From Gammaproteobacteria bacterium (GTDB lineage: Bacteria; Pseudomonadota; Gammaproteobacteria; Steroidobacterales; PWYM01): DNA of 50,889 bases. The translations under genes and the position numbers were made by a program. Shown piece by piece: positions 4,317 through 44,615 of the stretch (position 1 is its first letter; each line of letters begins with the position of its first letter). The stretch is taken from NCBI GenBank assembly GCA_007693855.1, contig RECU01000107.1, positions 1-50,889 of the forward strand. The letters run 5' to 3'. Below the pieces are notes generated by a model, which saw nothing but the letters and a program-made list of their open reading frames with translations, did not search any database and was not told the DNA's origin.

Positions 4317-4393
4317 TGGTAGCGGGGGCAGGATTCGAACCTGCGACCTTCGGGTTATGAGCCCGACGAGCTGCCAGACTGCTCCACCCCGCA
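4317..4393 (-). tRNA. Initiator tRNA-fMet (CAT)
   Basis: A 77-nt cloverleaf read on the minus strand, with CCA encoded. It has a CAT anticodon in loop CTCATAA, the three consecutive G:C pairs of the initiator anticodon stem (GGG/CCC) and a GAGCAG D-arm. The first pair of the acceptor stem is unpaired, as expected for an initiator, but here it is U1 opposite U72 rather than the usual C1 opposite A72. It has its own promoter and terminator, so it is a separate unit between nuoN and chrA. Confidence 0.95.
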
Positions 4394-19088: not shown

Positions 19089-19173
19089 TGGTGCCGACGG
19101 CCGGACTCGAACCGGCACGGCTTTCGCCACTGCCCCCTCAAGACAGCGTGTCTACCAATTCCACCACGTCGGC
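19089..19173 (-). tRNA. tRNA-Leu (GAG)
   Basis: An 85-nt class II tRNA with CCA encoded, a long variable arm and the leucine 5' pattern GCCGACGTGGTGGAATTGG. The anticodon loop TTGAGGG gives GAG, reading CUC and CUU. It lies between secG and nuoA on the same strand, the common gammaproteobacterial arrangement. Confidence 0.95.
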
Positions 19174-30983: not shown

Positions 30984-31808
30984 TCAGCCGGCCAGGCCCA
31001 GCACGTCCCGCATGTCGTACAGGCCGGGCGGTCGCTCGGCCAGCCAGGCCGCCGCGCGCAGCGCGCCGCGCGCGAACACGGCGCGATCCACCGCACGGTG
31101 GGTCAATTCCAGGCGCTCTTCGTCTGCGGCGAACACCACCGTGTGGTCACCGACGATGCTGCCAGCCCGCACCACCGCGAAGCCGATGTGCCCCGGCGCG
31201 CGTGCGCCAGTCTGCCCGTGCCGACTCCAGTCCGCGAGCCCGTCGAGCGTCCTGCCGCGGGCCTGGGCCACCGCCTCGCCCAGCGCCAGCGCCGTCCCTG
31301 ACGGGGCGTCGACCTTACCGCGATGGTGCGCCTCAAGGATCTCAGCGTCGTAATCTTCACCCAGACGCCCGGCCAGCAGCCGCGTGGCCTCGGTGAGCAG
31401 GGTAACCCCGACACTGAAATTGCGCGCGTAGACGACGGGGAGGCTGCGCGCGGTGTCCCCGAGCAGGGTCTGACCCTCGGAGGTCAGGCCGGTCGTGCCG
31501 AGCACCAGCGCGACACCAGTCGCCCGGCACGCCTGCAGGTGCGCCGGCGTCGCGGCCGCAAGGGTGAAGTCGATCGCCACCTGCGCCCCGGACAGCGCCG
31601 CCTCGGGCTCGGCAACCACCCGCACGCCTGGCGGCAGGTCCGCACACAGGCTCGAGACGTCATGACCCAGCGCCGGGTCGCCGGCAGCGGCAAGGGCGCC
31701 GCAGAGGCGGAAGCGCTCGGGCTGAGCGGCGATCAGCGCCAGCAGCGCCCGGCCCATCCGGCCGGTGGCCCCGAACACAGCGATATTGACGGGAGAGGCC
31801 TCAGCCAC
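30984..31808 (-). CDS. dapB: 4-hydroxy-tetrahydrodipicolinate reductase
   Basis: 274 residues, an NAD(P)H-dependent step of lysine and diaminopimelate synthesis. The N-terminal Rossmann motif is [11 protein letters not shown]. The catalytic region is [16 protein letters not shown] with the conserved His-His and Lys, and the substrate loop is ARNFSVGV. The start is a GTG at 31808 overlapping the dnaJ stop by 8 nt (GTGGCTGA), with GAGAG inside dnaJ as ribosome-binding site. dapB therefore appears coupled to the chaperone operon. Confidence 0.95.
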
Positions 31809-32943
31809 CGATGCTCTCGAAAAACCGCTTCACGCCGTCCATCCAGGAGCGCGAACGCGGATTGTGCTTTGCACCACCATGATGCAGCGCATCGTCGAAC
31901 TGCTGCAGCAGCTCCTTCTGCTCACCCGTCAGGTTGACCGGCGTCTCCACGGTGACACGGCAGTACAGGTCGCCCTGGGGCCCACCACGCACCGGTCGTA
32001 CGCCTTTACCCCGCATGCGGAAGGCTCGCCCGGATTGCGTCTCCGGCGGGATCTTGAGGGTCACGGAACCATCGAGGGTCGGCACCTCCACGCTGCCGCC
32101 GAGGGCAGCGGTGGTGAAGGCAACGGGCACTTCGCAGTGCAGATCGGCGCCCTCGCGCGAGAAGATGGCGTGAGGTTTGACGGCGATATCGACGTACAGG
32201 TCGCCCGGAGGCCCGCCATTGCGACCCGCCTCGCCTTCCCCGCTCAGGCGGATCCGGTCGCCGGTATCGACGCCAGGCGGCACCTTCACCGACAGCGTCT
32301 TGTCCCGGCGCACGCGGCCCCGGCCGCTACAGGCCGTGCAGGGATCCTTGATGATCCGCCCGGTACCGCGGCAGGTCGGGCAGGTCTGCTGCACCGAGAA
32401 AAAACCCTGCTGCATGCGCACCTGGCCGGCACCGTTGCAGGTCGGACAGGTGACGGGCTTGGTGCCCGGCTCGGCTCCCGTGCCCTCGCAGCGGCTGCAG
32501 TCTTCCTCGGCCGGAATGCGCAACTCGACCGTATCGCCGAACACCGCCTTCTCGAGATCGATCGCGAGCTCGTAGCGCAGGTCCGCCCCACGGTAGACGC
32601 CATTCCTGCCGCCCCGGCGTCCGCCGCCGAAAATATCCCCGAAAACATCACCGAAGATGTCGGCGAAGGCATCGCCGGAGGCACCGGCGCCCGGACCACC
32701 GCCGCGCCCCATGGACGCATCGAGACCTTCATGGCCGAACTGGTCATAGGTGGCCCGTCGGCGCTCGTCCGAGAGCACCTCGTAGGCTTCCTTGATCTCC
32801 TTGAACCGCGCCTCGGCTGCCGTATCGTCGGGGTTGCGATCAGGGTGGTTTTTCATCGCCAGGCGGCGATAGGCCTTCTTGAGTTCGTCCGCGGCGGCCC
32901 CGCGGCTGACACCCAGAACCTCGTAATAATCCCTTTTCGCCAT
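31801..32943 (-). CDS. dnaJ: Chaperone protein DnaJ
   Basis: 380 residues, the Hsp40 co-chaperone that stimulates DnaK ATPase. The J domain starts [15 protein letters not shown] with the HPD motif in KNHPDRNP. A Gly/Phe-rich linker with repeated FGD and FGG units follows. Four zinc-finger repeats are intact: [24 protein letters not shown] and CTACSGRG. The C-terminal substrate domain is complete. It follows dnaK after an 82-nt gap that contains a hairpin. Confidence 0.97.
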
Positions 32944-32970
32944 TGATCAGCTTCCGTTGCAGCGCCGTCG

Positions 32971-33008
32971 GGAGGCGACGCGACGGCCATGCAGGACGTC
33001 GCGCCTCC
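32971..33008 (-). other. Interrupted 12-bp hairpin between dnaK and dnaJ
   Basis: Plus-strand arms GGAGGCG and CGACG pair with CGTCG and CGCCTCC, with a 3-nt bulge and an 11-nt loop. No U-tract follows. It may adjust the dnaK to dnaJ expression ratio by partial termination or mRNA processing. Confidence 0.45.
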
Positions 33009-33025
33009 TCATCCGGGAAGTCCGG

Positions 33026-34969
<1,944 letters not shown>

Positions 34970-35031
34970 GATGTCTCTCCGTGTCTGCCGCGGCGCGTCG
35001 GCGCCACGGATGATCCTGTTCGTTACCCGCT

Positions 35032-35059
35032 AGATGGGGCGCGCCCGAGCCTTTTCAAG
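35032..35059 (-). promoter_or_regulatory. Sigma-32 (heat-shock) promoter of dnaK
   Basis: Minus strand CTTGAAA (35053-35059), a 13-nt spacer and CCCCATCT (35032-35039). This agrees fully with the RpoH consensus CTTGAAA-N(11-15)-CCCCATNT. It lies in the grpE-dnaK gap and predicts a leader of about 55 nt. Confidence 0.85.
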
Positions 35060-35105
35060 GCCGCGGCGGGCAGATTTTCGAGTGCGCAGCCGTGGCCCTG
35101 CTGGC

Positions 35106-35699
35106 CTAGCCCGGCATCTCGGCGGCCACCAGCACCCTGGCCGGACGCAGCAGCCGCTCGTGCAGCAGATAGCCTTTCTGGACCACGGTGATGACCGAGC
35201 CAGGCTCGGCATCCGGGGTCGGCACCATGCTCATGGCCTCGTGGAACTGCGGATCGAACGCCTCCCCTTGCGGATCGAGGGGCCGGACACCGGCTTTCTC
35301 GAGCACGTTCGACAACAGCTTGAGTGTGGCTTCCTGGCCCTCGACCAGCGCCCCGCCGGCGCCTTCACCCCGCGCGGCTTCCAGCCCCATCTCCAGGCTG
35401 TCGACCACCGCCAGCAACTCGCCTGCCAGCCGTTCCGCACCGAATTTCCGCGCATTTTCGACCTCGCGAGCCGAGCGCTTGCGCAGATTGTCGATCTCGG
35501 CGGCCAGCCGCAGGGCCTGCTCTCGCTGCGCCTGCGCGCGCGATTCGGCCTCCGCCAGCGCGGTCTCGAGTTCCGCGGTCGTAACCGCCCCGGCGTGCGA
35601 TCCCGGCTCCAGCACCTGGGTCTCGGCATACTCGTCGACGCCGCCGCCGGAGGCGGTCTCGTCGCCAGCATCGCGGCGGGGATCGTTCGGTTCGTTCAT
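35106..35699 (-). CDS. grpE: Nucleotide exchange factor GrpE
   Basis: 197 residues. It releases ADP from DnaK. An acidic, disordered N-terminus is followed by a long helix with coiled-coil heptads (ETALAEAESRAQAQREQALR, shortened as the start of the helix). The family core is ENARKFGAERLAGELLAVVDSLE, and the beta-wing ends GYLLHERLLRPARVLVA. The ATG at 35699 (MNEPNDPRR) has GGGAGG just upstream. It lies between hrcA and dnaK. Confidence 0.95.
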   Translation of the reverse strand: MNEPNDPRRDAGDETASGGGVDEYAETQVLEPGSHAGAVTTAELETALAEAESRAQAQREQALRLAAEIDNLRKRSAREVENARKFGAERLAGELLAVVDSLEMGLEAARGEGAGGALVEGQEATLKLLSNVLEKAGVRPLDPQGEAFDPQFHEAMSMVPTPDAEPGSVITVVQKGYLLHERLLRPARVLVAAEMPG

Positions 35700-35780
35700 G
35701 GTTCCTCCCAACAGGCAGCCGAACTGCGCCGAGCACGGGCGCAGCCTGCAGAATCAACAACTTCTGGTATCAATTGGCGG

Positions 35781-35808
35781 ACATTGGGCCGGCAGCGGGG
35801 TTTTCAAG
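35781..35808 (-). promoter_or_regulatory. Sigma-32 (heat-shock) promoter of grpE
   Basis: Minus strand CTTGAAA (35802-35808), a 13-nt spacer and CCCAATGT (35781-35788), one mismatch from the RpoH -10 consensus CCCCATNT. It lies between hrcA and grpE, about 75 nt upstream of grpE. Confidence 0.75.
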
Positions 35809-35832
35809 CCCCCGGCGTCACGCCAGTGGTCG

Positions 35833-36891
35833 TCAATTGCGCGCTTTCAGGCTGGTGCCAAGCAAGCGCGCGGTGACGTCCACGATGGGAATGATACGGT
35901 CATAGGCCATGCGGGTGGGCCCGATGACACCCAGCACCCCGACGACCGCATCATCGAGCGTGTAGGGCGCGGTCACCACGCTGCAGTCATCGAGTACGCT
36001 GTAGCCGGACTCCTTGCCAATGAACAGCTGCACGCCCTCGGCGGAGAGACAACGATCAAGAATATGCAGAAGATCCCGCTGTCGTCCGAAAGCCTCGAAC
36101 AGCCGGCGGAGCTTCTCGACGTCAGAGAGCTCACGGAATTCCATGAGATTGGTCTGGCCGGCCATGATGTACTCGGCGCGTGGCCGACTGGGCTCCTCGA
36201 ACGCCATTCGCGCAATTTCGATGGCGTCCAGCATCATTTCGTTGACGGTTTCGCGGGTCCGGTGCAGTTCATCGATCAGCAGCCGGCGCACGGTGGGCAG
36301 GTCACGCCCGGCGAACTTCTCGTTGAGATAGTTGGCCGCAGCCCTGAGCTCCTCGGGACCGAAGTCGCGCTCGAGGTGCAGGATACGGTTCTGCACTTCG
36401 CGGTCATTGACCACCAGGATGGCCAGCACGCGACGCTCGGACAGGGGCATGAACTCGACCTGGCGCAACGCCGTGTGCGGCTGCTTGGGTACGGTCACCA
36501 CGCCCGCCAGGCGCGTGACCTTCGACAGCATGTTGGACGCGTGCTCCAGCAGCCCTTCCGGATCATCGGCATGCTGGCGAAGCTCCTGCTCGAGGCGCCG
36601 GATATCGCGCGGGGTCGGCGGTTGCAGCCTGAGCAGGGTATCGACGAAAAAACGGTACCCCAGATCCGTGGGGATCCGCCCGGCGGAGGTGTGCGGCGCG
36701 GCAATGAAACCGAGTTCCTCGAGGTCTGCCATCACGTTGCGGATGCTGGCCGCCGACAGGTCCAGACCGGCATCCCGCGACAGCGTCCGTGATCCCACCG
36801 GCTCGCCTTCGCGGATATACTTCTCGACCAGCACCCGCAGCACATGCTGCGCGCGCTCTGAGGGCAGATCGGGGTAGCTCGCATCCTGCAT
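35833..36891 (-). CDS. hrcA: Heat-inducible transcription repressor HrcA
   Basis: 352 residues. HrcA represses chaperone operons by binding the CIRCE operator. The N-terminal winged helix is recognisable as RTLSRDAGLDLSAASIRNVM followed by DLEELGFIAAPHTSAGRIPT, the wing motif. The central GAF-like dimerisation domain and a C-terminal part with VVTAPY and GVLGVIGPTRM, a signature of the family, follow. The protein is full length. It is the first gene of hrcA-grpE-dnaK-dnaJ and has a CIRCE-like repeat in its own promoter, indicating autoregulation. Confidence 0.96.
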   Translation of the reverse strand: MQDASYPDLPSERAQHVLRVLVEKYIREGEPVGSRTLSRDAGLDLSAASIRNVMADLEELGFIAAPHTSAGRIPTDLGYRFFVDTLLRLQPPTPRDIRRLEQELRQHADDPEGLLEHASNMLSKVTRLAGVVTVPKQPHTALRQVEFMPLSERRVLAILVVNDREVQNRILHLERDFGPEELRAAANYLNEKFAGRDLPTVRRLLIDELHRTRETVNEMMLDAIEIARMAFEEPSRPRAEYIMAGQTNLMEFRELSDVEKLRRLFEAFGRQRDLLHILDRCLSAEGVQLFIGKESGYSVLDDCSVVTAPYTLDDAVVGVLGVIGPTRMAYDRIIPIVDVTARLLGTSLKARN

Positions 36892-36959
36892 GACCGTCTC
36901 CGCTGTTCAAGTCCCTGAATCGGCTGAAACAAATTAAAAACCGGAACAGCCTCGAAATG

Positions 36960-36989
36960 AAGCTAGCAATCGCCACGCCCGAGTGTCAA
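36960..36989 (-). promoter_or_regulatory. hrcA promoter overlapped by a CIRCE-like operator
   Basis: On the minus strand TTGACACTC, a 9-nt spacer and GATTGCTAG (36963-36989) match the CIRCE consensus TTAGCACTC-N9-GAGTGCTAA at 14 of 18 arm positions with the exact spacer. The left arm contains a perfect TTGACA -35 (36984-36989), and TAGCTT (36960-36965) is a weak -10 at 18 nt. Bound HrcA would cover the promoter. The site is about 70 nt upstream of hrcA and 41 nt upstream of divergent nadK. The rest of 36892-37030 shows nothing else clear. Confidence 0.8.
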
Positions 36990-37030
36990 GAATGGCCACG
37001 TTCAGGGTCGACTCCCACCGTGGCGGCATG

Positions 37031-37933
37031 ATGAGCAAACGCAGATTCCAGACGATCGGCCTGGTTGGCCGCTTCGAGGACCCACAGGTCATCGAGCCGG
37101 TCACCAGCCTGCTCGCCCTGCTTCGCGACGACGGCCGCGAGGTGTTGATCGGCGGGCCGGCCGAGGCCGTCCCCGCGACGCTGACCGAAGCCGAGCAGGT
37201 CGACGAACAGGCGCTGGCCGGCCGCTGTGACCTCGTCATCGCCGTGGGCGGTGACGGTACCATGCTTTACGCGGTGCGCCTGGTCGCGGGGCATGACGTC
37301 CCGCTGATCGGGATCAACCGGGGTCGGCTCGGGTTTCTGACCGACATCTCGCCGGACGACATGCACAGCCACCTGCCGGCCATTCTCGCCGGCCGTTTCC
37401 TGGCTGAACCCAGACGGCTGCTCGAGGCCGAGATCGTCCGGGCCGACGGGACCCGCACCGGGCCGATGGTCGCCCTGAACGATGTCGTCCTGACCAAGCA
37501 CATGACCGGCCGGATGCTCGACGTCATCACCTGGATCGACGGCCGCTATCTGAACACCCACGGCGGCGACGGCCTGATCATCGCCACGGCCACCGGCTCC
37601 ACCGCCTATGCCCTGTCCTGCGGCGGCCCGATCATCCAGCCCAATGTCGATGCGCTGGTGCTCGCGCCCATCTGTCCGCATACCCTCAGCGATCGGCCAC
37701 TGGTGCTGCCGGCGACCAGCCGGATCGAGACCAGCGTGGAGCCGCGTTTCGACGTGCGCGCCCAGGTCATCTGCGACGGGTGGCCGCTCGGTGACCTCGA
37801 GCCCGGCGACCGGCTGCACGTGCGCGCGGCGGACAACCCGATCACGCTGCTCCACCCCGAGAACCACGATTTCTACGAAATCCTGCGCTCGAAGCTGCAC
37901 TGGGGCCGCGACAACCGCTGGCGGCGGGGCTGA
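37031..37933 (+). CDS. nadK: NAD kinase
   Basis: 300 residues. It phosphorylates NAD to NADP. The opening RRFQTIGLVGRFEDP is family-like; GGDGTML (73-79) is the catalytic/nucleotide motif, and ALNDVVLTK and ATATGSTAYALSCGGP form the rest of the active site. The ATG at 37031 (or 37028) follows GGCGG; in-frame sequence farther upstream is not conserved. It is divergent from hrcA, and the CIRCE-like element lies in the shared gap. recN follows after 14 nt. Confidence 0.96.
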   Translation: MSKRRFQTIGLVGRFEDPQVIEPVTSLLALLRDDGREVLIGGPAEAVPATLTEAEQVDEQALAGRCDLVIAVGGDGTMLYAVRLVAGHDVPLIGINRGRLGFLTDISPDDMHSHLPAILAGRFLAEPRRLLEAEIVRADGTRTGPMVALNDVVLTKHMTGRMLDVITWIDGRYLNTHGGDGLIIATATGSTAYALSCGGPIIQPNVDALVLAPICPHTLSDRPLVLPATSRIETSVEPRFDVRAQVICDGWPLGDLEPGDRLHVRAADNPITLLHPENHDFYEILRSKLHWGRDNRWRRG

Positions 37934-44246: not shown

Positions 44247-44615
44247 GGGGGCGACTTGGCTTCGACGTGGGTCGCGAAACTCTGGGTGCATGCCGAGGCG
44301 CAGACCACCTCGTAAATCCAGCTGCAAAAAATCTAGTTGCGAACGACGACAACTACGCTCTCGCTGCCTAAGTAACCCTTAGGTTAGCGTGCATCCGACC
44401 GGTACTCGCCCGTGGGTCCGAATCGGGTGTAACCGCACACGGGATCGCGCGAGCTCACGTTCGGGGGGATCGCGTTAAAACCAAATCCGGACTGGCGAAG
44501 GAGTCAGCCTGCCTTTCGGCGGACCCCAAGCGAGATGTTAAATTGTCAGGCTAAGCATGTAGATCTCAGGGCAGAGGGCTTGCGGACGCGGGTTCGATTC
44601 CCGCCGCCTCCACCA
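44247..44615 (+). ncRNA. ssrA: Transfer-messenger RNA (tmRNA)
   Basis: 369 nt with the CCA encoded. The 5' GGGGGCG pairs with 3' CGCCTCC to form the alanine-tRNA-like acceptor stem, and GGTTCGATTCC is the T-arm. The tag reading frame runs from a GCG resume codon at 44339 to TAA at 44369-44371. It encodes ANDDNYALAA, one residue different from the E. coli tag, and keeps the ALAA degron for ClpXP. The 3' end has served as an integration site: the last 20 nt are copied at 47494-47513. Confidence 0.97.
44596..44615 (+). repeat. Left attachment-like repeat in the ssrA 3' end
   Basis: The last 20 nt of the mature tmRNA match 47494-47513 at 18 of 20 positions, with the final 14 (CGCCGCCTCCACCA) identical. 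This is the expected position of an att core for elements that target the tmRNA acceptor end. Confidence 0.8.

Follow-up and report, generated by a model that had tools for sequence, protein, structure and literature searches.

The hrcA-grpE-dnaK-dnaJ operon of this gammaproteobacterium is best explained, with a probability that we put at roughly 0.8, by internal sigma-32 (RpoH) restarts within the operon together with action of the repressor HrcA on groESL and rpoH, where the rpoH promoter would combine sigma-E activation with HrcA repression. In the proposed circuit, transcription would enter the operon at an hrcA promoter, run through it and start anew at two internal sigma-32 promoters. 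As far as can be judged from sequence, grpE and dnaK-dnaJ would rise with RpoH while hrcA would not. The strong operators of HrcA would lie elsewhere, namely before groES beside a sigma-32 box and on the rpoH promoter, with the latter operator overlapping a sigma-E-like promoter. HrcA of Bacillus subtilis needs GroE to stay active. When protein damage occupies GroE, HrcA would be expected to lose its operators, groESL and rpoH would be de-repressed, and the extra RpoH would drive grpE, dnaK, htpG, hsp20 and groESL.

The genes of the operon, all on the minus strand, were identified with Pfam and NCBIfam models in the window, by which we denote the whole 50,889-nt stretch of DNA that was analysed (Table 1). 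A terminator scan of the operon region found no terminator-like sites between hrcA, grpE and dnaK, so that read-through is possible. Terminators separating these three genes were rejected as candidates: the four sites obtained all lie within hrcA and dnaJ, and their number is close to the 2.7 expected from shuffling.

Table 1 Features of the operon region. Positions refer to the window. Column Evidence gives family-model matches or agreement with the consensus.
Feature	Positions	Strand	Evidence
dnaJ	31801..32943	-	Pfam DnaJ, DnaJ_C, DnaJ_CXXCXGXG
dnaK	33026..34969	-	Pfam HSP70 893 bits
Predicted sigma-32 promoter of dnaK, CTTGAAA-N13-CCCCATCT	35032..35059	-	14/14 consensus bases
grpE	35106..35699	-	Pfam GrpE 162 bits
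Predicted sigma-32 promoter of grpE, CTTGAAA-N13-CCCAATGT	35781..35808	-	13/14 consensus bases
hrcA, heat-shock repressor	35833..36891	-	Pfam HrcA 216 bits; TIGR00331 337 bits over positions 1-336 of 338
Possible sigma-70 promoter of hrcA, TTGACA (36984-36989), 18 nt, TAGCTT (36960-36965)	36960..36989	-	Read from sequence; overlaps CIRCE-like element
Degenerate CIRCE-like element, TTGACACTC-N9-GATTGCTAG	36963..36989	-	14/18 operator bases

The consensus of sigma-32 is CTTGAAA, a spacer of about 13-14 and CCCCATNT. An earlier note on this DNA had claimed RpoH promoters before dnaK and grpE, and both boxes were found where it had placed them, on the minus strand and with 13-nt spacers, one in the hrcA-grpE gap and the other in the grpE-dnaK gap. 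The distance from the end of the box to the start ATG is 62 nt for dnaK and 81 nt for grpE. In the window, the sigma-32 pattern was found twice where 0.01 matches were expected, and none of 100 shuffles had two. With a spacer of 12-14, the pattern has four exact matches in the whole 3.28-Mb genome, and its reversed control has none; the remaining two precede htpG and an Hsp20-type gene (best NCBIfam match under the cut-off of that model), so that all four exact matches head a heat-shock gene. The search for rpoH that the earlier note had proposed returned one rpoH above the family cut-off (TIGR02392, 402.6 bits).

In order to assess the conservation of the boxes, we searched 39 genomes, of which 35 had a match, and used the 30 hrcA loci that were returned; these come from the own genome, its genus and its order. 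Before grpE, near the end of hrcA, 26 of the 30 loci have a box of at least 11/14 (at least 12/14 in 19/30). Before dnaK, such a box is present in all 28 loci with a dnaK start, L020 and L022 being left out because no dnaK start was found (at least 12/14 in 24/28). Within the own genus, one of the five genomes (G003, locus L012) reaches just 10/14 before grpE. With sixty scrambled consensus pairs as control, the mean was 0.4 regions at the threshold of 11/14 (largest single scramble 11/30 and 12/28) and 0.05 at that of 12/14 (largest 1 and 2), and control windows inside hrcA contained no box in 90. The boxes also persist in family f12, where no hrcA was found: grpE loci were obtained from eight of its nine genomes, and in all eight the box scores 12/14 upstream of grpE and 11/14 before dnaK. 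The sigma-32 boxes therefore do not depend on hrcA. A chance origin of the two boxes is ruled out by the window shuffles, the genome-wide reversed control and the recurrence in relatives. The claimed RpoH promoters are supported by this recurrence, by the persistence in f12 and by the presence of rpoH; sigma-32 promoters of grpE and dnaK in such an operon are by themselves ordinary.

The head of the operon gave a different picture. We scored the CIRCE operator against TTAGCACTC-N9-GAGTGCTAA (18 bases). A strong CIRCE at this position was rejected, since the element is degenerate (14/18) and only 3 of the 30 hrcA loci reach at least 15/18 at the hrcA head, the other 27 scoring below. The statement that the operon head carries CIRCE is weak: a CIRCE-like element with genus-conserved arms is there, but in degenerate form. 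For the same reasons, the claim that hrcA is controlled by its own product by way of a CIRCE at the head is not well supported. An ORF at 36983-37933, read as NAD kinase, is divergent from hrcA, which places the element in an upstream region common to the two genes, where it may influence both.

The head element could instead be a sigma-70 promoter of hrcA (TTGACA-N18-TAGCTT) that is CIRCE-like by chance, with hrcA not autoregulated. The TTGACA and a TTGCTAG recur in two other loci (L023 and L024) at a poor CIRCE score of 12/18, and a score of 14/18 was reached somewhere in 3 of 20 resampled windows. However, the arms are invariant at 17 of 18 positions in all five same-genus genomes, including the arm bases outside both hexamers, while the six central bases vary; moreover, a consensus scan of 31700-37100 returned no sigma-70-like sites and so did not report the TTGACA/TAGCTT pair. 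We regard this reading as tentative, at somewhat below even odds, and it is compatible with a position of HrcA over RpoH.

When the whole genome was searched for CIRCE with at most three mismatches, only two sites were found, both perfect, one before groES and one before rpoH. The groES CIRCE adjoins a 12/14 sigma-32 box. The distance from the rpoH CIRCE (18/18; positions 31032-31058 of contig C104 of this genome, G000, or 1501-1527 of locus L039) to the ATG used for rpoH is 35 nt, and the site is downstream of an ORF read as ftsX. HrcA seems to be aimed mainly at rpoH, the gene of the heat-shock sigma factor itself. Since the genome has no CIRCE with up to three mismatches other than those of groES and rpoH, the HrcA and RpoH systems would be stacked and not parallel, and HrcA is most likely positioned above RpoH, not beside it. 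The circuit drawn earlier, with HrcA on hrcA and RpoH on grpE and dnaK, keeps its RpoH half but had missed the CIRCEs at groES and rpoH.

We then considered how widely the rpoH CIRCE is spread. Among named rpoH loci (the best 80 of 255), 36 show a CIRCE scoring 16/18 or more in the 300 nt before rpoH. Many of the 36 carry the label Betaproteobacteria or Burkholderiales, and no CIRCE at that threshold is present in the Idiomarinaceae, Psychromonas, SAR86 and Cardiobacterium-type loci of the same best 80. Random stretches of the named loci gave 0 of 1196. The closest named loci among the matches listed (L040-L043) belong to unclassified Gammaproteobacteria MAGs (T3Sed10, CSSed16, Super_Day8). 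In a scan of 296 genomes of the order, CIRCE with at most two mismatches was present in 287, mostly at two sites, and rpoH in 280. For the order test we took 80 of the 296 genomes (one per genus, all nine of f12 and the own genus), which gave 80 rpoH-upstream regions from 79 genomes and 67 genera, G127 being without an rpoH match and hence without a region. A CIRCE of at least 17/18 precedes rpoH in 70 of the 80 regions, while reversed or shuffled controls scored at most 13. The ten regions without it are those of the nine f12 genomes and that of a second rpoH copy in G070 (L199), which was counted as a region without CIRCE, as was the second rpoH copy of G324 (L242) in the class sample below.

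These counts bear on the simpler possibility of parallel dual control, in which HrcA would act on the hrcA head promoter and RpoH on grpE and dnaK with no link between the two. The sigma-32 boxes are real, and the head does have a CIRCE-like element with arms conserved in 5/5 genus members. Against this, the head element scores 14/18 where the same genome has a perfect CIRCE before rpoH, and the head score of under 15/18 in 27 of 30 hrcA loci contrasts with 17 or 18/18 at rpoH in 70 of the 80 order regions. We therefore consider parallel control unlikely.

The class sample consisted of 104 genomes that are at least 90% complete; 94 have rpoH, and 92 of these were fetched as 93 regions, the other two (G000 and G013) being in the order set. 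A CIRCE of at least 15/18 is found at rpoH in 62 of the 68 regions from hrcA-positive genomes (which include G353 and G375, with hrcA fragments below the family cut-off only) versus 2 of the 25 regions from hrcA-negative genomes (defined as the complement of 76 listed positives, with 8 of 28 not listed by name). The corresponding Fisher p = 3e-14 treats genomes as independent and, as the genomes are related, overstates their independence and is a guide only. At a threshold of 16/18, the values are 59/68 and 1/25. CIRCE at rpoH thus tends to go with an encoded HrcA and to be missing where HrcA is missing.

There are exceptions on both sides. CIRCE is missing at rpoH in six of the 68 hrcA-positive regions, among them that of the second rpoH copy in G324. 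The two hrcA-negative regions with CIRCE are those of G309, scoring 17, and G359, scoring 15. No hrcA was found in G309 or in G006 and G016 of the order, all of which have an rpoH CIRCE of 17 or 18/18; the missing hrcA in these three genomes possibly reflects assembly gaps. In the hrcA-negative G361, one recognisable CIRCE half is left before rpoH, as decay after hrcA loss would leave. The loci of G361, G359 and G309 (L248, L218 and L278) are possible cases of recent hrcA loss.

A conserved inverted repeat before a gene may also act in RNA, and the rpoH CIRCE might be a hairpin in the rpoH leader (an RNA thermometer or an mRNA stability element) and not a repressor site. CIRCE folds as a stem-loop in RNA, and a transcription start upstream of it is possible. 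However, a hairpin of this kind does not fit the far greater frequency of CIRCE where hrcA is present, the two rpoH leader stretches fold not markedly better than shuffles (z of -0.78 and 0.18), and the rpoH locus L039 matches no Rfam family. We regard this explanation as highly improbable. More generally, we rejected an RNA thermometer for the leaders of rpoH, dnaK and grpE, since all four stretches that were folded are near their shuffles (z of -1.26 and 0.38 for the other two). When the window, L039 and L038 were scanned with Rfam, the only matches were one tmRNA gene (44247-44615 of the window, plus strand) and two tRNA genes (4320-4393 and 19092-19173 of the window, minus strand), all of them outside the operon and the two loci.

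The consensus of sigma-E is GGAACTT-N16-TCTAA/TCTGA. We aligned the CIRCE-bearing regions only (70 from the order and 64 from the class) on the operator. The order consensus has GGAACT 16 to 11 nt before the operator, followed by 17 nt and a TCTAA that is inside the operator. The trinucleotide AAC stands exactly 14 nt before CIRCE in 49/70 order and 34/64 class regions and at -15 in 11 and 6, respectively, with a median over offsets of 1. The rpoH CIRCE would accordingly overlap a conserved sigma-E-like promoter, whose register fits the sigma-E consensus. In the own genus, the -35 element at rpoH is only TGAACC (four of five genomes) or TGAACT (one of five), so that its sigma-E-like promoter is weaker than that of the order. 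In addition, TAAAAT after TGC at the right CIRCE arm resembles an extended -10 of the housekeeping sigma factor. Canonical RpoE is encoded in G000 (TIGR02939, 298.9 bits) and was above cut-off in 9 of 9 genomes searched outside f12 versus 0 of 9 in f12.

Family f12, whose nine genomes belong to one genus and count as one event, is informative here. In none of the nine was hrcA detected, none has canonical RpoE above cut-off, and none has CIRCE at rpoH; eight have no CIRCE with at most two mismatches anywhere, and the remaining one (G059) has a single site away from rpoH. All nine rpoH-upstream regions (L156, L160, L165-L167, L170, L171, L175, L176) instead have a sigma-32-like box of 12 or 13/14, with a spacer of 14 in seven and 13 in two. 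Elsewhere, a sigma-32-like box of at least 12/14 at rpoH occurs in 3 of the 71 other order regions and 1 of the 93 class regions. One of the three order cases is the second rpoH copy of G070, with a 13/14 box and without CIRCE. This suggests that the rpoH promoter of f12 was rewired to self-control by RpoH: the two regulators predicted at rpoH, HrcA and RpoE, are missing together where the sigma-32-like box is present, which fits what was predicted.

In the ftsX-rpoH gap of E. coli we found TGAACTT-N16-TCTGA, which we take to be the sigma-E promoter known as rpoH P3. Its spacing is as in the order and class consensus. Unlike here, the gap has no CIRCE (best score 10/18), and the control genomes that had an hrcA match do not include E. 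coli. We lean, by a modest degree, to the view that rpoH of Gammaproteobacteria (as delimited by GTDB, Betaproteobacteria included) was ancestrally controlled by a sigma-E promoter gated by HrcA, that the sigma-E promoter found before rpoH in E. coli is a remnant after HrcA loss, and that f12, having lost both HrcA and RpoE, was rewired to sigma-32 self-activation.

A cascade from HrcA to RpoH is known in kind, since a CIRCE at -51 before rpoH was already predicted from sequence in Geobacter sulfurreducens (Rodionov et al. 2004, PMC545781); it is the breadth that is unusual. The part of that paper at hand also gives CIRCEs at groESL and at hrcA-grpE-dnaK-dnaJ, similar to the situation here except that the hrcA operon of Geobacter sulfurreducens has a consensus CIRCE. 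Within the same part, it lists one delta-proteobacterium with an rpoH CIRCE and does not mention a sigma-E promoter or co-loss with hrcA. According to the available portion of a review (PMC11764788), groE of Agrobacterium tumefaciens is under RpoH plus HrcA. A single chaperone operon there answers to the two regulators, as groESL would here, but the target is groE, and HrcA control of rpoH is not described in that portion. The same portion cites Weng et al. (2001) for Xanthomonas campestris, where the hrcA-grpE-dnaK-dnaJ gene order is as here and grpE and dnaK increase 2.8-fold and 1.9-fold with temperature. It further reports that, in Xylella under nitrogen starvation, hrcA was up more than 4-fold and rpoH 2-fold, which is not as a simple rule of rpoH repression by HrcA would predict. 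The excerpts of PMC6085468 and PMC9866376 at hand hold nothing on HrcA at rpoH. In the CC-licensed literature, as far as its accessible text goes, only PMC545781 was seen to place CIRCE at rpoH. That literature, which does not include Permina and Gelfand (2003), by our guess the likeliest to hold beta or gamma cases, yielded in its accessible text no report of the distribution in gamma- and betaproteobacteria, the overlap with sigma-E or the rewiring in f12, which does not prove that none exists.

Teaching on the heat-shock sigma factor mostly starts from E. coli, where we detected no HrcA. Should HrcA occupy the rpoH promoter in most of the related lineages, the two classical systems of heat-shock control would be joined there in a single cascade. 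DnaK senses through sigma-32 in E. coli. If the proposed circuit is true, GroE (through HrcA) and DnaK (through sigma-32) would be two sensors at different levels, and the internal boxes would let the chaperones rise without raising hrcA. Family f12, with its sigma-32-like box at rpoH, may then serve as a ready natural comparison for the rewiring of a stress circuit after regulator loss.
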